Notes under the pieces: generated by a model
Databases searched by the model: none
What the model saw: only the letters and a program-made list of their open reading frames with translations
Told to the model about the DNA's origin: nothing
Shown here: positions 7,893 to 48,080 of the stretch, one piece after another
Numbering within the stretch: position 1 is the first letter of the stretch
Layout of the letters: every line of letters starts with the position of its first letter
Assembly: GCF_963675165.1 (NCBI RefSeq)
Contig: NC_087380.1
Location: 6,518,071 to 6,582,070, forward strand
Reading direction: 5' to 3'
From: Halichondria panicea
Lineage: Eukaryota; Porifera; Demospongiae; Suberitida; Halichondriidae
Length of the DNA: 64,000 nucleotides
Position numbers and translations under genes: made by a program

Positions 7893-8509
7893 AATTAATT
7901 GTCCACCCACGCGCCAACAGTAAATACCAGGCCCACTATTCAAGGGGCTGGAGTCGAGGCTACCCTGCCTCCTCTGGGAATAGCACAAACGGGGTGGAAC
8001 CTACACGCGGTTAAGCTCACGTGGCTGCTATTTCTTGATTGAAGGCAAGAAAGACAAAGAAGTCGTTAAAATGCATTCCAATGACACAATTCAACTGGTG
8101 GCAAGTAACTTGAAGTAAGCGCCATAAAGAGACAAGTTTAGAGCATAAAACTCAGTGAATTTGTTGCTGGCTAGTATAGTAGCTAGAGTTTTACAAGTAG
8201 AGATTAGATTTGTTGTAACAACCAAGGCTCAGATGTTGGCAGTGATCCTATCCTGAATACAGGCACAGAATACTTATTAAACACTCTAAAACAGAATTAT
8301 ACTAAAAACAATAATATCTCAAAATCTAAGTGGTGATTAAAACTGGTTGAAAAGCTATTTCATATTAGTATAAGCCCAGCAATGAACCATCCTGATCCAA
8401 GTGTATTTCTTGAAAGATACATGCCAAACCAAATCCACTATCAAAGTACACAGTCTTGATCATGCACAAGTTAATGAGATTCATAATCCTTTTGGCTGGT
8501 CATGTGACC

Positions 8510-8526
8510 GTGTCGTACCTCCTCTG
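8510..8526. mobile_element. Solo end of a CAGAGGAGGTACGACA element
   Basis: GTGTCGTACCTCCTCTG is the right terminus seen on the 121-bp MITE at 22649-22769 and on the copy at 29113-29229. No partner end was found upstream. It lies 4 bp before the target duplication of the large transposon. Confidence 0.5.
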
Positions 8527-8702
8527 ATTCTGATGTGTCCAGAGGAGGTTGGTCACGCGTCATAATTTGCTCATGTGACTGCAAAATCTTTTCTTTTTTT
8601 GTTGTTGCCATTTCCAATGAATCTCATTATTCTCCAACCTTTTCCAACCTAGCGTTAGATCGTAACGCAGTAGTGCAAAGTATTGCGAATGTGTTAGCAC
8701 TG

Positions 8703-11700
8703 ATGTCTTCTCTTCTAAAACGACCTAGGAGCAGTCCAACTTACTTGACACCGACCAGGCCAGGAAAACGAGCACCCCTAAGGCTAAGACTGTTAGAAAA
8801 CTCTCCCCATAGTAGATTCCCAGTCTGTAAACCTAGGCAGCTGGAGCTTGGTTCTCCTCACCATATTATTCATTCTGCTAATGCAAGTGTTACAGCTCCT
8901 CAACGACAAGTATACTGTAGACAATATGCTGATGCTTGGAGTGAGGCTGAGATCAAGGCTTTGGTAGAGTTTGTTCACTTTCACTGCGATAAGAGCAACT
9001 GGCCCACTCATCACAACAACAAATATTGGAAAGCAGCTGCTTCATTTGTTAGAACACAAGCCAAAACAACAGTTCAGCGATCAGGTAAAGTAAGAAGTAG
9101 ATGTCTCTGCTGGCGCTAAAGCCTTCAGTACTCAATATTCTAGGGGTGCTGCTAAATGCAACAGCATGAGTCGACTGTATTATAATATACATCATGTATA
9201 TAATTACATGCTGTCGAAGTTCAGTTGTACTGAAATAACGGCTTGAGATAATTATTGTAATAAATGTCACATGTCCCTTGGTTTTTTGTGTAGGTGCATC
9301 ATGCCGGTATAAAGTTGTTGGTTGGTTAAAGAAAAAATTTGCTCAGCCCCAAAATGCAGAGGACTTCTACTTTGCTTTACATTCTTCTGTTGCTATACAA
9401 ACTGAAGAAGCTAGTGTTAAGGTGCAGACCAGGTCCAATACAGCCAATGTCAGCGTACAGACCGCACGCATGTTAACAACAGCTAGTGTTCAGACTCAGA
9501 CGGAAGAAACAGTACCTGTGGCAGTAAGTGTTGAGGTGCAAACAGATGAACCTGCAATCACAAGTGCTCACCCAGTCGTATCACCTGATTTGCTGGCTTT
9601 GTCTGAAATGTTTTGTGACTATTGTAAGGAAACTTTGCATTTATGTGTACCAGCAGATTTCCTGGAATTGTCAGCAGCAGCAATGACTCACCTACAGAAC
9701 CACGGTCGATCAAATGTTATGTATAATCTGGCCAAAGGTGTGGGTACCGAACGACCAGACCAAAGTGATTCCTGTTTCCCTGTTCGTAGGATGCCAATAG
9801 GACTTGTAGAATATGTCACCAATTTCTTTTCAGCTACAGACATTAACTCGGTAGGGAAATATCTTATCTATAATTACAGCTACTGCATGTAACTCTCATT
9901 TTATATTCCAGGTTCCACCATGTCCACATGATTATCGATCGTGGTTGGAGACTATGTACTGCCAGTTTGGTCAGAAGTGGGCTAAACTCCATCATGGGCC
10001 AATGTGGAGTGTATCTGAATTGCATGGGACCTCTCACCAGAAAGAAAGAACACAGTCCAGGTATATATACTCATGCAGGAGGAGACGGGTTGTGGCTGCA
10101 TGATTGTATTAACTCCGGGCCTGTATATTAGTGTGTCTTTATATAATTATAGTTCATGTGTAAGTAGTGTTTCTCAGGCGTTAGCCAATATTCCTTCAGT
10201 AAGTGAGAGTACTCTCCGTCGTGACATTGCTGATAGTGGAATTTCTTTGGATGCCAGTATTCAGGTATCATGCATGTGTACACTATAGAATTTGGGCAAT
10301 GCACTACAAAAAAAATTAATCAATTTAACAATTTTTTTAATGGTCAAAACAATTGAAACTGAGGTGACATTTATTAATGTAGCTTTAACGAAGTACAAAA
10401 AGCGTCAATTCAACTTTTATGTAATAATTATAACAACTATTTAAAAATACTTATAAGTATTAATGTATAAAATATAGTTTTAACGTTATTATTGCTAGGT
10501 TAAAACTATTGTGTTTTATTGTCAAATCTACTTAAGCCATGCATACATTAAAACAACCATTAAGACAATACTTATTATAATAAATAAGACTCATTATAGC
10601 TAAATAAATTCCTAAAACAACGATTTACAAATGAATCGGTATAACAATTATTATTCAATTCAATAAATAACATGTTAATACAAAAATAGTGATAGGAAAC
10701 GTTCGTGACAACTGAGTGAGACAATGGTATACAATGTTAAATTAGAAGGACAGTTTTATATTAATTAGCCCAAGGAATAGTTCTTCTTGGTGTAACATAC
10801 TGGACTCACAAGTATAGCAGACCGATCACTCTTGACCACGCAGAGTCCACCTATAATAGTAAATACATCATTGTTATTGATATTAATTATTACCGTGTAT
10901 TATCAATCACCGAGAGGATATCCAACAATGACGCCACTTCTATCCATTCGTCTGTTTGTTTCGTTTGTTCTCGCATGTCAAGCTTGCCAGTTTAAGGAAT
11001 TTCTGTAGGAAAAAGTATATGCTTAGAGGTATATTGACAGTGACAGTGTTCACCAGAAAACTAGACACTTTATGTTTGTCCCTCACCTCTCACAGAAGTA
11101 TCATCATCCACTTGGTGTAGTCACAGTCATACCTATTAAAGTCTTATAATTATACTGTTGAGAACACTTCATGTCTGTCCCTCACCTCTCACAGAAGTAT
11201 CATCACAGTCAGATTTATAGCAGCAAATGTCCAGCATATAGAAAGGGTAATCGTCTTCTCTTTTCTTGGAGCACATGGTTTCACAGCTCTAGATCTACTG
11301 AGCATGCGCAATCTTAGACTTAGCATAGCCACGCCCACAATTTCATTTTAGTTTCTAGGTCCTCTAATATCTATGGTTCTATGCAAACTTGTACATTTCC
11401 TTACAATGTTCATGACTGTATATAATTTCACATCACTCATGCTATTATAAATGGATTGTTAAAAATATTGATTGTATATAATTATATGTGTGCCTGTGTT
11501 AGAACAAATATTATTATTGTTAAATCTAAATTTATATATTGTATTCTAACATGCTGCATGATAGAGTTTCAAATATAATTTAATCAAAATGAGTTTGTTA
11601 GTTTGATTTAAGATATCAATAATAGATTCTATATAAATTATTGTAGAAGTAAAAGACATTGTGTGATTCTACAATATTTTAAGTTAAAACCACATATACT

Positions 11701-14528
11701 GATTATTTTAACGTTGTCTTTTTATTTTACTAAATATTAAGTTGATTCAACTGTTTAAGAATAGTGTTAAAACGACTATGCAATGTAGTTTCAAAAAAAA
11801 TTTTTTGCAGTGTGTGTACCCGTTTTATCACCTCACAGATATCTGTGTTAGATGAAGCAGCCCGTGTTCATCCAGACACTTGGTGGTGGATTAAAGCTGA
11901 TGGTGTTGACTTGGTGAGTGGATTAGGAGAGTCAGTGAGAGGTGTTTGGAGTGGAGATGTAGATCTCGCTGACGGTTCACTGAAAAAAGCGTACGATGCT
12001 CATCAAACCAGGTTAATGTTTGTCAAGAGGATAGGAGTTGAAACAAGGTCAGATTCTTCCATCATTCTGAAGGACCTCATGATGTTGGAACAGCTTGTCG
12101 TGGAAGATTTAAAACACATCTCAGCTTGTAAGGTCTCTGCTGCATTCGATAACACTGCATATGTATAGACTTTCTGCATAATTATATCAAATGGTGGTTA
12201 CATGTTTCAATTCCAGGTATTACAGTAAAAGCAAAGCATTATGAAGAGAAGCAAGCAGCAGGAAAAACCTCCGAGAAGCAGATGTTTGGATTGGCATGGG
12301 ATGTTGAAGAGCTGGGCCGCATCAATGAGAGTGGAAGACAGCTTGTAGTGGAAAGTAGAGCTATGACGGACAAGCTGCGTGATCCTGCTTACGATAAAGT
12401 TTCTGAAAACTTTCCCAGGAAATTGAGTTCATTCAGGGAACAAGCTGTCCAGTTTTTAAAGAAATCAATGAAATTTAAACGTACCCCGGCTACTCATGTG
12501 CTTGTGGTAATGATTAGCCCAGAAGAGCGGAATAAGAAACCTTATGCTCTGCCGGTTCAGTGTGTGGCATATCATTCTTTAAAAGATGAAGCTGTCCGGT
12601 CTCTTGTCAACTCAATGATCAAAGAAATGACTTCAAGAGGAATGAAAGTAGCTGGTAAGTATACTGCATGCGTACGGTACATGTATACACTGTTACTCTA
12701 TAATGCAGGATTTGTTACTGATGGGGAGTGGAATTCATTAAGATCAAAGGGGAGAGAATGCCCACTCAGTATTTTTGAGATCCGTGCTCAAGTTCGTCGA
12801 AAGTATACTAGACTCTCTGTCAAAACTATGACAGATATGTTAACGCCCAAAGGTAGGACCTGGTATACATGCATGGTCATAAAACTATGTCATGGTATTA
12901 TGATTCCATCGCAGAGTTATCAGGAGGCTTAATACAAGCTTTGCATCCAAACCCTGCTGTTAGTCAAGACATATTGAAGAAAGTTTACACTTGTCTTAGT
13001 GAAGAAGAATGCTCAATGGAAGATGTGATAGTGCGCCTACGACAGAGGACCGTTCCTTCGGGATATGACTATCATATGGATTTCTGGTAATCTAGTGTAC
13101 AGTGTATAATACAGTCAGTATATATAATGATGTCATATAGATCAGTTATGTTAGTGACATAATAATATCTATTGACCATCTCATTATCAGGAAAGAAGGA
13201 AAAAAAAGAACACATGTTGCGTTCTATACTGGCTCAGTATGAGTACGCCTTTCGGGTGCTCCAGTATTGTGAACAAGGAATCAGTTTTGACAAGCATTTG
13301 CACATTCCAGAGGTTAACACAATCACAGGTGAAGTCCTCTGCCATAGAGAAGATGAAGGACACCTATTTAAGGTATAAAAGTATAGGGCATTGTATTTAA
13401 CATTCAATGTGCATTATACATTTTGCTTATAGCACTTCTGATCAATCAATTATGCATGTATTATAATTTATATGCACATGGAACAGAGGATGGGAAACAC
13501 TCTTCGTGAGGGACGGGTAGACGACAACAGAATGGAATATTTTGTAGAAGCTGTCAAAGATCCAAGCACTGGTCTCACATATCCTGCTTTGACTGGAGTG
13601 CGTAAGCAGCCCGTACAAGATGTTGAGCGCTTATTTGGTGAAGGAGTGATCAAATTTATGGAAGCAAAGCAATATATGCCTGAAGCCATCTATCTAAGAG
13701 TTGTGCGTAATTGGCGAAGAGCTGTAGATGAGAGAGGCTTGGGTGAAAGTACTAGGCAGCAATTCCTCCAGGAATTCAAAGATTTCATTTGTGCGGACCT
13801 CATGCCTTGGTATACTCATAGCAAGGATTTCAGCCTGCTGGAAGTTAACAGGTGTGTAACTTACTCTGTCCATCGTGTAAATTCAGCGATATAAGCATAC
13901 TGTTTTTCCCAGACCACTAGACAAGGTGAGAGGATTCACCAGAGAAACCTTAATTGGTGTCACCGCTGACATTGAGACCAGAATGTGGCGACACACTTTC
14001 AATAAAGCAAATGGCATTCCTCCAGAACATCCAAGAGCATCTACAACAGATGATGTGGAATGTTTCTTTAGCGTGCTGAGGGATTGTGTTGGCAAAGACT
14101 TTACTCTAAAGCAGGTGATACATGCATCAAGTATTATGATTTAGACAGTCAGAGTGAGTTTACTTTGCTTTTGCACCTAAATGTACACATGCACTTTTCA
14201 GGTATATTATGGGTGGAGAAAAATCACTCTTGAATTCAAGAAAAGAATGGATCCTTCTCTACCATTCTACTACTACACCACTGCCCACCAAAGATTTTAT
14301 GAAGGAGATTTGCCAGGGTTTGATCAACCAGCAGAAAAGATTAAATCAGTTCGGATTCCCCAACGAGAGCTTCTAGTTCCAGGGGTGTCTCGTAGAGCAA
14401 CTCTTCCAGTGAGAGGCAGCCTGTCCATCCGGGCAACATTTCATAATCGACCCGTGAATCTTCCTCCTCTACCGAATGCGAGTGTATCTTCTCTAGTTTC
14501 AGCTGAACATTCATATGCTCATGAGTAA
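8703..14528 (+). CDS. Putative DDE transposase with N-terminal Myb/SANT-like domain (12 exons, one frameshift)
   Basis: Exons by splice sites and frame: 8703-9084, 9294-9850, 9912-10060, 10168-10264, 11839-12127, 12217-12654, 12709-12852, 12915-13086, 13191-13372, 13487-13851, 13913-14114, 14202-14528, about 1,100 codons. Residues ~75-146 form a tryptophan-spaced Myb/SANT-like DNA-binding domain (AWSEAEIKALVEF, NWP, YWKAAASF, RSGASCRYKV). Residues ~160-212 carry five xQT motifs. The core has WWWIKADGVDLVSGL (D416), GFVTDGEWNSLRSKG (D642) and STTDDVECFFSVLRD (E974), proposed as the catalytic triad. The C-terminus ends in basic and proline-rich sequence. In exon 9 an A8 run (13200-13207) puts the downstream frame out by one base, so the gene is either broken or miscalled there. 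The start ATG at 8703 was chosen over upstream in-frame codons inside the terminal repeat. Assignment to a known superfamily was not possible. Confidence 0.75.
10265..11838 (+). other. Long intron 4 of the transposase gene
   Basis: This 1.57-kb AT-rich intron is far longer than the gene's other introns (54-209 bp). It contains a direct repeat of about 35 bp (CCCTCACCTCTCACAGAAGT at about 11081 and 11177). No coding sequence or clear transposon ends were seen. Confidence 0.55.
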
Positions 14529-14786
14529 ACTGCTTAGCTGTATAATTTATATATAATTATATCATAATTATATACATGCATGCTAAGTCCATGCATTATA
14601 CCTATAATTATATGATTATAGCAAAATTAACGTATACTACAATTATACGTTGTCATTGGATATTATTAATTGATGTCGAGAACAGTTTAACCAAGAAATC
14701 ATACAGTGCTTGCACATTGCATAACTATTTTGTCCCATGAACCTTTTTGTGTTATTTTAATGCCACAATACCACCCAGGCTGTGAT

Positions 14787-15602
14787 CTAGTCCAGTGTGT
14801 AATAAATTTTACCCACTGTATATAGCTCCACCGATACTATTTTGTTGTCCTGCTGTGCTGTGTGTACATTCTCCAATACTTCGCGAACAAGATACCCAAC
14901 CCGTTCCCAAGAATGATCAACAAATCCCTCAATGGCAATGGCACTGGAATCATATTGATTAAAGGGTTCAGGGTTAATTCTTACGTCAGCTACTTCTCCC
15001 CTTCTCTTCTTCAATGCCATCTCAGCAAGTAATTCTTGGTACTTGGGTTCCTTGGTTGACCCAATACATTTAAAAACAACGGAGTGTAACACATCATTGC
15101 TACTGGTACCTGAATCAGTATCTTCCTCAGTATCCTCGTCATTGTCTTCTAAATCAGAATCACTAACATACTGAATTTCAGAATCGTCTACAGGTAGGGA
15201 TTCGGGAACAAATACAACCTCTGGCATTACAAACCAATTCCACAACACAAACAACTCATTATAAAACGTACTAAGTTCAGCTCCAGTAATGTCTATAGAT
15301 CTATTGAACTCTTGTAAGGGTATGAAAAAAGCATTTTCATGTCCAGCACACAACCGCAAAGTAGAATTGGCGCTTGCTGTTTGTGCATCATCTGCATGGA
15401 TAAACCCATCAAGCACGATTCCATTCAGTTTCTCATCATTTTCAATGGTGTACTGTATAGGAGTTAGTTTTGTCTTAAATACAGGAAAGCTGGGCACTGT
15501 GTAATCAATTGTTTTGCCGACTGAAACAACATATAACAGCATATGGTTGCTCTCAATTTCTTCACCACATTCATTACACTTACAGCCAACTACTTTGTCC
15601 AT
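14787..15602 (-). CDS. HIRAN-domain accessory protein of the transposon
   Basis: Intact 271-residue frame on the minus strand, starting 143 bp inside the right transposon end. The N-terminus has a cysteine cluster (CKCNEC, residues 8-13) that could bind zinc. The middle region (~155-178) is strongly acidic (EDNDEDTEEDTDSG). Residues ~180-262 match a HIRAN domain: VVFKCIGS, YQELLAEMA, VRINPEPFNQYDSSAIAI, ERVGYLVREV, the pattern xPExNxxDxxAI...VGYL. HIRAN domains (as in HLTF/Rad5) are known to bind 3' single-stranded DNA ends. Here it would fit recognition of cut transposon or target ends (inference). It runs convergently to the transposase and lies within the same inverted repeats and target duplication, so it belongs to the element. 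No helicase or RING domain is attached. No stop or frameshift is seen. Confidence 0.82.
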   Translation of the reverse strand: MDKVVGCKCNECGEEIESNHMLLYVVSVGKTIDYTVPSFPVFKTKLTPIQYTIENDEKLNGIVLDGFIHADDAQTASANSTLRLCAGHENAFFIPLQEFNRSIDITGAELSTFYNELFVLWNWFVMPEVVFVPESLPVDDSEIQYVSDSDLEDNDEDTEEDTDSGTSSNDVLHSVVFKCIGSTKEPKYQELLAEMALKKRRGEVADVRINPEPFNQYDSSAIAIEGFVDHSWERVGYLVREVLENVHTAQQDNKIVSVELYTVGKIYYTLD

Positions 15603-15760
15603 CTGGGAGGTCTATTAATCAATGCTTGCAGTGCGGTATCCTAGCTGGCTGGATCTCAGCTAGACGCAAACTCGCCAATATTTATAACAGCAGGCACTAA
15701 CACATGACTTGTGACGAGTTATGACGCGTTACCAACCTCCTCTGTGATGTGTCAAAGCAG

Positions 15761-22574: not shown

Positions 22575-23138
22575 CAAAGGAGGCTGGAACCACTTGACCT
22601 TAGCTAATTAAGGTCACTAATTGGATTTATCAAACTTCTCTTGCAGACCAGAGGAGATACGACATCCGCGTGTCATCTGCATGTCTTTAACACACACATT
22701 CCGAACTTTGACCTAAGGAATGTGTGTCTAAAACGTTTCCTTTGACACGCGGATGTCGTACCTCCTCTGCTTGCAGACTACTTCAAGCCTAGTTTTTAGT
22801 GTCTATCAGTTTAAAACGTTATTTTTCAGGGGGGGTCAAATTTTTTTTTCGCCAATTTTACTCAAAAGCAGAGATACAATCAAAAGTCTTGCTCTTGTAT
22901 ATACTAGCCTCGATATCATGAGCGGCTTGTTTTCGAGGTCACTGCATAGCTGGCTTTGAGACTTGTATCTCTGCTTCTGAGCAAAATTGGCGACAATAAA
23001 ATTTAACCCCTCCCCTGAAAAATAACGTTTTAAACTGATAGACACTAAAAACTAGGCTTGAAGTACATAATCTGCAAGAGAAGTTTGCAATTAGTGACCT
23101 TAAAATTAGCTAAGGTCAAGTGGTTCCAGCCTCCTCTG
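22575..23138. mobile_element. 564-bp foldback MITE, C(A/G)A(A/G)GGAGGCTGGAAC ends, 9-bp target duplication
   Basis: Left CAAAGGAGGCTGGAACCACT and right AGTGGTTCCAGCCTCCTCTG are inverted, and the pairing extends through most of the element (for example TTTTTAGTGTCTATCAGTTT / AAACTGATAGACACTAAAAA). The 9-mer CGGCACAAC flanks it exactly (22566-22574 and 23139-23147). Its terminal CAGAGGAGG and 9-bp duplication match those of the 7.2-kb transposon. A second MITE is nested inside its left arm. Confidence 0.88.
22649..22769. mobile_element. 121-bp MITE, CAGAGGAG-TACGACATCC ends, 9-bp target duplication, nested
   Basis: Left CAGAGGAGATACGACATCCG and right CGGATGTCGTACCTCCTCTG are inverted, followed inward by CGTGTCA/TGACACG. 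The exact 9-mer CTTGCAGAC lies on each side (22640-22648 and 22770-22778). The right arm of the host element holds the uninterrupted counterpart (ACTTCAAGC...ATCTGCAAGAGAAG), confirming insertion into one arm. A related copy lies at 29113-29229 and a solo end at 8510. Confidence 0.9.
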
Positions 23139-29112: not shown

Positions 29113-29229
29113 CAGGCCTACACATCTGCGTGTCAAAGGAAACGTTTTAGACACACATTCCTTATGCCAAAGTTTGGAATGTGTGTGTTAAAGACACGCG
29201 GATGACACACGGATGTCGTACCTCCTCTG
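29113..29229. mobile_element. ~117-bp MITE of the CAGAGGAGGTACGACA family, damaged left end
   Basis: The interior (GTGTCAAAGGAAACGTTTTA, GACACACATTCCTTA, GTTAAAGACACGCGGATG) and right end GATGTCGTACCTCCTCTG match 22649-22769 in inverted order. The left terminus is eroded (CAGGCCTACACATCTGCG) and the segment next to the right end is partly repeated. No target duplication is visible. Confidence 0.75.
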
Positions 29230-45212: not shown

Positions 45213-48080
45213 GGTGTATGTGTGCATGATGCCTTTGAATTTCTCTTTTAGGCCCCCTACGAGAAAATAAGCAGATATAGGGATCATTGTGTACTTTCTT
45301 GAGCGCAACTCGCCTCCAACCAGAGGGTGTGATGTCACACACTGTATTACCTAGCATCACGTGGGACGTTGCCTATCCGTTTATCTATGCTTGCATGAGA
45401 ATCTACATGTAGTTGTGCGGAGTTCAGGCAGAATCCAGAATTACAAAGACTGGGTAATGATTGACCATGTTTGTTGTTAAAAACGATCGATGCCAAAAGT
45501 TCAAGCCTAAGATTAGTACACGTACTTACAGAGACAAGCTCTTCTGAAAAGGCTGCAATAACATTCCAAGTAGGCATAACTCGGAAGCATTATTTTGCAA
45601 ATCAACAAATTGAAGTCCAAGACAACATGACTAGACTAGCTATATATCCGGAAACTCTTACTTCGACTTCATTGATCCGCCTTGCCGAGCAGCTGTGCAG
45701 TGCAGTCTACACACACAGACACCCACAAACATGCACATGCACTACCGTATATTCTGCTTGCGCATGCGCATCGATGCTACACATTGTTGTGTTAATCCAC
45801 TCCAGGTTCATTACTGAGATAAAATCTGGTGCTGCACCAGAGGAAGTACGACACTCTTTCTATTGTGCATGATGACGTTTGCTGAGCTGGCAGTTTACCG
45901 CGACATTGCCACGACAAACTCTAGGCTTGTACATGTAGAAACTGACTGTCTAGCTAGCTCTGTGTGTTTCTCACTGGGGTTCAGCAACGGAAACAGTTTG
46001 ATCTAGGTCTAATCTATACCATTAACTTCAGTCACAGAATGACAAAGTTATTATGAGGAATACACTACATTGAAAACCAATGTCAAAAAGATTGGAATGC
46101 AATTAAAAGAGCGACCACGAGATGTGTGTCGTACCTCCGCACCATATGGCTGCACCCCATCAAGAGTGTAGACAGTGTAACAGCTGTATATAGGATTTAA
46201 GGCTGCATGCAATTTTCGGGCCTTAAGCTCGCAGTTGTGAAATATTATGCGCAAAAACAAACAATCTATGACAAATCTAAAACTCGAAGCCTTGCAATAC
46301 TTGCTGTCCCAGTGCATTGCCGCGGTATTGAAAGGTCTCTGACCCATTGCCATGGAAATGACTCCATTTGTAGCTCAAGGCAAGATATTACTGCAGGGAT
46401 AATAAATAATGAATACGAACAGAGAACTGTATAATAAAGGTTTCTCAGCGGAAAATACAAATTGGAGCATCTATATACTCACAAGCCCTCACTGTATCTC
46501 CATGCAGCCAGCCAGGCTGTATCCAATCTTACACAAGTCAAGTGCATGTATGACTATAATTAAACTGCTTAATAGTCTATTGTGACAGAGTCACCATTGT
46601 ATAATTATGGTGCCATTGTATGGAGTACATGCAAGGTCACAGTCTACACTAAGACTCCGGAAGTGTGTATTATACAGTTCATTTGTCAATTTATATGGGC
46701 CCTTATGGGAGATAATGATATTCATAGTTTGCGGTAGTATCAAAAACAGTAACACTCCTTTTGTCAAGGATAACTTTTCACCAGTAGGTGCCTACCACTA
46801 TTAAATGATATACAAATAATGCTGAATAAATAAGCTACTGAATGATATAAAAATTAAGTGGTAAAAAAGTACTGAATTGCTGCATTGTATGAAAGAAAAC
46901 TGGTGATATTTATATTTTCTGTGACTTTGATTTCCGGGCAAATTAGTAATAGGGGTGCTGGAGAGATACAGATGGGCTAGACTATAGACAACACTGGTAA
47001 CTACAAGTAGACCAAATAAGAACACTAATGACCCAGGTTTGACCAAGATACAACAAAGTAAACATTGACAAAAATGAGTAAGTTTAGCTCTTGCCTACTT
47101 TCCACTTGAGTGTCCAGAGTTTCTTGAAACTGCCTAGATAGCTAATATAATGCTAGAAGTTAGTCTTTGCAAAGAAATAAACAGCATCCGCTTTGCCAAT
47201 ATTTTTTTATAGCAGGTCTTGTGTTCTAACATTGGCCAGTTTATTGGATATATCCTGTTTGGACTGACTTTGATTTCTGGGCAAATTAGTACTCCCCAGT
47301 TCTGGATCCTAATTTTCCTGTGGCCAGTTCATGAATACTATATCTACTAGTACTGTGACTCTGGAACCTGGCTTGCACTTCAGGACCTGGGTATTGATGC
47401 TGGAAAAACTGAAAAAGTTGTTTCTTTATCCAATTCTGATAGTAAACAATGACATACAGAAGCCATAATTAAATTTACGGAGAATTACTGTAGTATTTAC
47501 AAGCCACAAACAGGAAATTTACTCACTATGATGCAAAACCACGATTACATCATTTGAAGCCAAATTTGTAGTCTTAGTGTAGACTCAGGGCACACCACTA
47601 TAGATCTCAAAACACCTATTTTACATTAAGGTGGTATGCACAGTCTCACCCTTCACCAACACAGCAAAACATTATTTTATAGGGACACCACCTCTCAATT
47701 ATTGTGGTGCCTGGAGGAGTAGGAGTACTCATTGCCATGTATTAACTATTACTTCCTTCCTAAACGGATTTTTGTACACATTGTTTACTACGTACACATT
47801 CACATATGGTTTACAAATGCTATCAATAAGAGTTTATGTTCCTATTATAATGTATTGTCAAGGCGAATCCATGCAACGTTCATGCTTTCTTATTCAACCA
47901 CTTTTACTACAACAACAACAAATAAAACAATGGCTTAAAATGGCTAGGTAAAACAGAACACGTTACTATAATAGTCAGCCACTCAAACTATACAATCTGT
48001 GTTTTAATGTGTAACTATACAATCTGTGTTTTAATGTGCAGCAGTAGATATAAGCAAATAGGACTTAGCTATATAAGCCA
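45213..48080. other. Intergenic with one possible MITE relic
   Basis: No gene seen in 2.9 kb. CAGAGGAAGTACGACACTC at 45838 and GTGTCGTACCTCC at about 46126-46138 could be the ends of a decayed 300-bp CAGAGGAGG-family element (flanks GTGCTGCAC and TGGCTGCAC, 7 of 9). A 25-bp direct repeat (ACTATACAATCTGTGTTTTA) is at about 47987 and 48010. No splice-linked exons recognised. Confidence 0.45.

Follow-up and report, generated by a model that had tools for sequence, protein, structure and literature searches.

A HIRAN-encoding DNA transposon lineage in the sponge Halichondria panicea and its likely kinship with P/THAP9-type transposases

What kind of DNA transposon carries a separate gene for a HIRAN protein beside its transposase, and is that second gene part of the system? 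The question is raised by an element at 8540-15744 of a 64,000-nucleotide stretch of the Halichondria panicea genome (contig NC_087380.1, positions 6,518,071 to 6,582,070 of the forward strand), called here the window. An earlier reading of the letters alone, the sequence-only reading, had described a complete two-gene transposon with a Myb/SANT-DDE transposase that fitted no superfamily it could name with confidence. We analysed the window together with the 131-Mb assembly that contains it (G000), from which the main loci were cut out. The lineage is real and well defined; its partner gene and its second catalytic site are both unusual, and it is probably kin of the P/THAP9 type. Judging from profiles and motifs, it is likely a divergent HIRAN-encoding cut-and-paste lineage of the hAT/P/MuDR/Kolobok/Dada clan, nearest by profile to the P/THAP9 RNase H domain.

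The ends of the element lie exactly where the sequence-only reading had put them: 26-bp terminal inverted repeats (TIRs) with one mismatch, flanked by the exact 9-bp target-site duplication (TSD) TGATGTGTC. When the entire window was scanned for CAGAGGAGG-like end pairs, three pairs had exact flanking repeats, all of length 9, and none had exact repeats of 5, 6, 7, 8, 10 or 11 bp; the ends and the duplication length are therefore not due to chance. Two non-autonomous relatives, one nested in the other, are listed in Table 1. The smaller, a miniature inverted-repeat transposable element (MITE), has its empty site in the termini of copies L036 and L038, which read uninterrupted ...ACTTCTCTTGCAGACTACTTC...; the duplication made by the nested MITE is thus exactly 9 bp long. 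A 17-mer of the end of this MITE occurred 397 times genome-wide versus 0 for the reversed control, and the 121-bp unit was present in at least 40 copies, with homology confined to the unit. Ten of 14 sampled MITE copies with flanks had exact 9-bp TSDs and 3 more had one mismatch.

Further copies with the same ends and 9-bp duplications, which the sequence-only reading had suggested looking for, were found in the same assembly. Protein search gave dozens of transposase exon matches, and nine full-length elements with CAGAGGAGG ends were recovered (the window copy, L031, L032, L033, L034, L035, L036, L037, and L038), with TIRs of 18 to about 245 bp and a transposase identity between families of about 40%. 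Their TSDs were exact 9-bp repeats in seven, matched at 8 of 9 positions in L034, and were exact 8-bp repeats in L036. The tally over these nine and 16 MITEs came to about 20 exact 9-bp TSDs and the one of 8 bp; of 20 exact ones, 17 begin and 16 end with G or C. Near-identical copies (95-99%; about 98-99% for L033/L034 and L036/L038) occupy unrelated sites, and the limits of their homology coincide, exactly or very nearly, with the element ends; families such as these two were therefore recently mobile. Units ending 5'-CAGAGGAGG...CCTCCTCTG-3' have moved, with the two target joins staggered by 9 bp. Since TIRs and fixed-length duplications were found at many sites, a cut-and-paste mode of DDE type is as good as shown from the footprints. 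Hundreds of small non-autonomous derivatives populate the genome.

Other traces of such ends were noted separately. The right-end-like sequence CAGAGGAGGTACGACACGGTCACATGACC (minus strand, window 8498-8526) lies 13 bp upstream of the element, and no left partner for it was found in the window; this sequence and the nested MITE both hint that related ends, or their close neighbourhood, serve as insertion targets. Single CAGAGGARGTACGA ends, without recognised partner, stand at window 29216-29229 (minus strand) and 45838-45851 (plus strand). At locus L049, positions 160-591 (oriented on the minus strand) hold a 432-bp MITE with CAGAGGAGG ends, the TSD AGGGAAGTG and ends resembling those of the L037 family.

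The transposase gene was read with GT-AG at all exon junctions; a spliced-alignment script recovered the same 12-exon structure, and paralogous copies hold equivalent genes. This spliced gene, the conserved partner, and the family TSDs bear out the description of a two-gene DDE-type DNA transposon with a standalone HIRAN partner, and the three transposase motifs quoted for it, VTDGEWNSL and TTDDVECFFS among them, are present. The word "complete" holds for the outline and fails for coding: the window copy has a 1-nt frameshift at an A8 run in exon 9, and its conserved HIRAN tail, present as far as 14699, is out of frame. With one frameshift in each of the two genes, a complete and intact copy was rejected; it is a recent, no longer fully coding family member, which probably no longer encodes two full proteins. 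The Myb/SANT label drew weak matches, as Pfam Myb_DNA-bind_4 gave E=0.03 for the window N-terminus and 0.0097 at best in the family; the best Pfam E values for the label were about 0.006-0.01, below cut-off. Intron 4 (10265-11838) measures about 1.5 kb versus 50-150 bp in most paralogues; within it, the segment at window 10302-11812, bounded by CACTACAAAAAAAATT...AATTTTTTGCAGTG, resembles a nested element with short TIRs, of CACTA type or another.

Residues are numbered here so that D416, D642, and E974 of the sequence-only reading become D421, D647, and E979. The invariant columns of the transposases were W416-W417-I-K-x-D421-x-x-D424, W-x-G-D440-x-D442, K-P-Y-A-L-P, G648-E649-x-N651, D802-x-x-H805-x-x-K808-R809, and D977-V-E979-C-x-F-S. 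Position 647 is Asp in the window copy, L032, and L039 and Asn in L034, L035, L036, L037, and L4445, that is, in 5 of 8 families, and families whose frames are intact or whose copies are near-identical are among those with Asn. All 8 have the Glu at +2 (E649). The proposed triad does not stand as written, and D647 was rejected as the general second catalytic residue; either Asn would serve at 647 or E649 would supply the carboxylate.

The transposase, which the sequence-only reading could not assign with confidence, can also be given a tentative place: it carries a P/THAP9-type RNase H signature and the DxxH motif of the clan. The sole transposase family in Pfam that matched was TNP-like_RNaseH_N (PF21787, P/THAP9 type), in 4 of the 6 members scanned; the best of these matches (E=7.3e-5), at 23.5 bits, falls just below the cut-off of 24.6. 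Exons of P-type transposases encoded elsewhere in this genome served as a yardstick; hhalign aligned them with the family over 61 columns (E=3.2e-4, probability 39%), pairing the P-type "VTADGA" (DGA) with "V[T/S][D/N]GE" of the family. The invariant D802 and H805, between the second site and E979, form the DxxH motif of the hAT/P/MuDR/Kolobok/Dada clan; its surroundings read SDVPHLIKTTRN in the P-type proteins of the genome and RED-GHLFKRM in the HIRAN-linked family. The corresponding residues of the P element are D230, D303, D339, and E531 (PMC8230255). By comparison, residues 421, 647, 802, and 979 here give 226 versus 73 between the two Asp, 155 versus 36 from the second Asp to DxxH and 177 versus 192 from DxxH to Glu, so two extra stretches appear inserted relative to P while the last interval is similar. 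NCBIfam gave no match, sequence searches of solved structures (single and profile) gave none, and searches of viral, prokaryotic, and phage collections brought up no relative. In the same genome, P/THAP9-type transposases with long open frames were seen at C1, C2, C3, C4, C9, and C12; eight places share one score and several share open-frame length, which suggests that this P-type family was recently active.

Several points weigh against the placement near P. It is drawn from one Pfam match below cut-off, one hhalign match of the probability given, and one motif; the residue spacing is strongly unlike that of P, and the TSD has 9 bp and not 8. AlphaFold2 on the single window transposase sequence reached a predicted local distance difference test score (pLDDT) of 33, so that no fold was obtained and the model was left unused, and the role of the HIRAN protein is inferred. 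A new superfamily of the rank of P, Kolobok, or MuDR, defined by CAGAGGAGG ends, 9-bp TSD, [D/N]GE site, and HIRAN partner, is in our view possible but rather unlikely. In its favour, families that share only about 40% identity have all the defining features, and the transposase scores below the cut-off of every Pfam model; against it, there is the match to a P-type profile, rank is conventional, and the comparison covered Pfam, NCBIfam, and the P-type proteins of the genome.

The duplications themselves recall other superfamilies. A MuDR/MULE lineage would agree with 9-bp TSDs in about 20 independent insertions, with TIRs up to 245 bp and with the DxxH motif, and TSDs of 4-10 bp are reported for MuDR and IS256 together (PMC10045372). 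It appears improbable, given that no MULE or Mutator Pfam model came up at E<=1 in six members, four of which match the TNP-like model, and that it is this same segment over which P-type proteins of the genome can be aligned. An Academ lineage, with the TSD length of AcademH and a large multi-exon transposase beside a repair-related accessory gene, has a slim chance only, since Pfam found no helicase or XPG nuclease domain in the six members.

The placement near P/THAP9 leaves the second gene to be explained. It lies on the opposite strand, convergent with the transposase gene. The window protein alone matched Pfam HIRAN at 14.6 bits (E=0.029; cut-off 24.7), while the L036 homologue reached 38 bits (E=1.5e-9), above the cut-off, and for the family we consider the domain assignment firm by profile. 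Protein search of the genome gave HIRAN homologues at 36 loci; at 26 the homologue lies downstream of a transposase gene, about 3 kb or less from its 3' end and convergent in every case, and no other arrangement was seen among these 26, while the remaining 10 stand alone. Across eight families, pairwise HIRAN distances are correlated with those of the transposases (r=0.63, a value reached in 85 of 10,176 permutations), and both proteins give the same nearest pairs (the window copy with L032, L036 with L4445). These data speak for long co-inheritance, and a HIRAN partner that is conserved between families of 40-60% identity is not chance cargo. A passenger gene, captured but playing no part in transposition, would fit the solitary homologues and the lost tail of the window copy, but hardly the uniformly convergent placement or the correlated divergence across families about 55-60% different, and is accordingly given little credence. 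The HIRAN domain of human HLTF recognises single-stranded DNA 3' ends and prefers fork-like junctions (PMC4666394), and therefore an accessory role at the transposon ends or the target gap is plausible. A literature search linking "HIRAN domain" with "DNA transposons" found no published connection; the other HIRAN matches were HipA and HLTF.

Taking these observations into account, a mechanism can be proposed. The transposase of the long copies would move autonomous copies and MITEs, its Myb/SANT-like N-terminal region binding the transposon ends and its RNase H core, with D421/D424, the loop [D/N]-G-E649, and E979, cutting and joining. In families with Asn at 647, E649 probably gives the second metal-binding carboxylate. 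The HIRAN protein, inherited with the transposase, would act as an accessory subunit and not as cargo; its probable ligands are exposed 3' ends or fork-like DNA, at excised ends or at the gapped target. The boldest form of the proposal, a superfamily-level lineage in which the second carboxylate has shifted from Asp to Glu at +2 and HIRAN is an obligatory subunit capturing 3'-OH ends or gapped target, seems doubtful to us.

Few accessory proteins are known from eukaryotic DNA transposons, and these are poorly understood; a conserved HIRAN partner would tie transposition directly to a 3'-end and fork-binding domain of DNA repair. The natural change from Asp to Asn at the second site in recently mobile families would make the relocation of a catalytic site in RNase H transposases testable. 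With this lineage the P/THAP9 branch would also come to include proteins and termini of a very different kind, and hundreds of MITEs in the genome are explained.

Table 1: Coordinates of the element, its genes, and its relatives within the window
Feature	Position	Strand	Evidence
Element (two-gene DNA transposon)	8540-15744, 7205 bp	genes on both strands	ends and TSD
Left TSD TGATGTGTC	8531-8539		exact repeat of right TSD
Left TIR CAGAGGAGGTTGGTCACGCGTCATAA	8540-8565	+	25/26 identity with right end
Right TIR CAGAGGAGGTTGGTAACGCGTCATAA	15719-15744	-	25/26 identity with left end
Right TSD TGATGTGTC	15745-15753		exact repeat of left TSD
Transposase gene, 12 exons, about 1105 amino acids (aa)	8703-14528	+	GT-AG junctions, frames, paralogue homology
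Transposase exons 1-6	8703-9084, 9294-9850, 9912-10060, 10153-10264, 11839-12127, 12217-12654	+	
Transposase exons 7-12	12709-12852, 12915-13086, 13191-13372, 13487-13851, 13913-14114, 14202-14528	+	
Myb/SANT-like (trihelix-like) N-terminal region, residues about 77-145	8900-9400, across exon 1-2 boundary	+	conserved W/W/C pattern
Exon 5, putative first catalytic motif WWIKADGVD (D421, D424 invariant) and W-GD-D (D440, D442)	11839-12127	+	invariant columns
Exons 6-7, P/TNP-like RNase H segment (residues 585-651) and second-site motif V-TDGEWN	12217-12852	+	Pfam PF21787, hhalign, alignment
Exon 9, DxxH motif RED-EGH-LFK (D802, H805 invariant)	13191-13372	+	alignment columns
Exon 11, putative third catalytic motif TTDDVECFFS (D977, E979 invariant)	13913-14114	+	invariant columns
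HIRAN protein gene, CxC-C N-terminus, acidic linker, C-terminal HIRAN domain, 271 aa as read	14787-15602	-	Pfam HIRAN
HIRAN C-terminal tail QWVKFITHW..QPGWYCGIKITQKGSW..	14699-14831	-	frame translation versus L032/L036 homologue tails
Non-autonomous relative, 564 bp, L036/L038-family ends, TSD CGGCACAAC (exact 9-bp)	22575-23138		window end-pair scan
MITE, 121 bp, CAGAGGAGRTACGACAT ends, nested in the 564-bp element, TSD CTTGCAGAC (exact 9-bp)	22649-22769		window scan

With the P superfamily (Drosophila P element, THAP9, Galileo) the lineage probably shares the TNP-like RNase H segment (A-THVL-M...P...G--V---[D/N]G); it also shares a DxxH motif followed by K (DVPHLIKTTRN in the P-type proteins of the genome) and a final Glu in a helix-like DDVECFFS--R context; long TIRs in some families recall Galileo. 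It differs in the length of its TSD, which is 8 bp in the P superfamily, and in a Myb/SANT-like N-terminus where P has a THAP domain, for which no Pfam match was found in the six members scanned. The first and second sites are separated by about 150 additional aa, and about 120 more precede DxxH; the second Asp is replaced by Asn with Glu at +2 in most families, and a HIRAN second gene and many introns are present. Some cnidarian and lancelet transposon-like proteins have a "DGQFH-L...PLT" motif, which resembles "[D/N]GE[WFY]N-LR...PLS" here, and may be relatives; the resemblance is a lead and not a test.

With MuDR/MULE there are in common the TSD length, the DxxH motif, possibly the long TIRs, and the frequent MITEs, while the termini, the HIRAN partner, and the lack of a MULE profile match set the lineage apart. 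AcademH is reported to make 9- or 10-bp TSDs (PMC10045372) and carries a repair-type helicase; by this description the TSD length and a repair-related accessory protein are shared, but the accessory there is a helicase and Academ does not appear among the listed C/DxxH superfamilies. Kolobok also belongs to the C/DxxH clan, and some of its lineages carry additional genes (KolX, nuclease, RecQ helicase) as accessories; its TTAA 4-bp duplications and 5'-RR termini (PMC9587614) contrast with the 9-bp TSDs found here, which have G or C at their ends and no TTAA. Finally, the HIRAN domain of HLTF and Rad5 has its homologue here in a transposon protein, which is small and without the SWI/SNF translocase or RING of those proteins.
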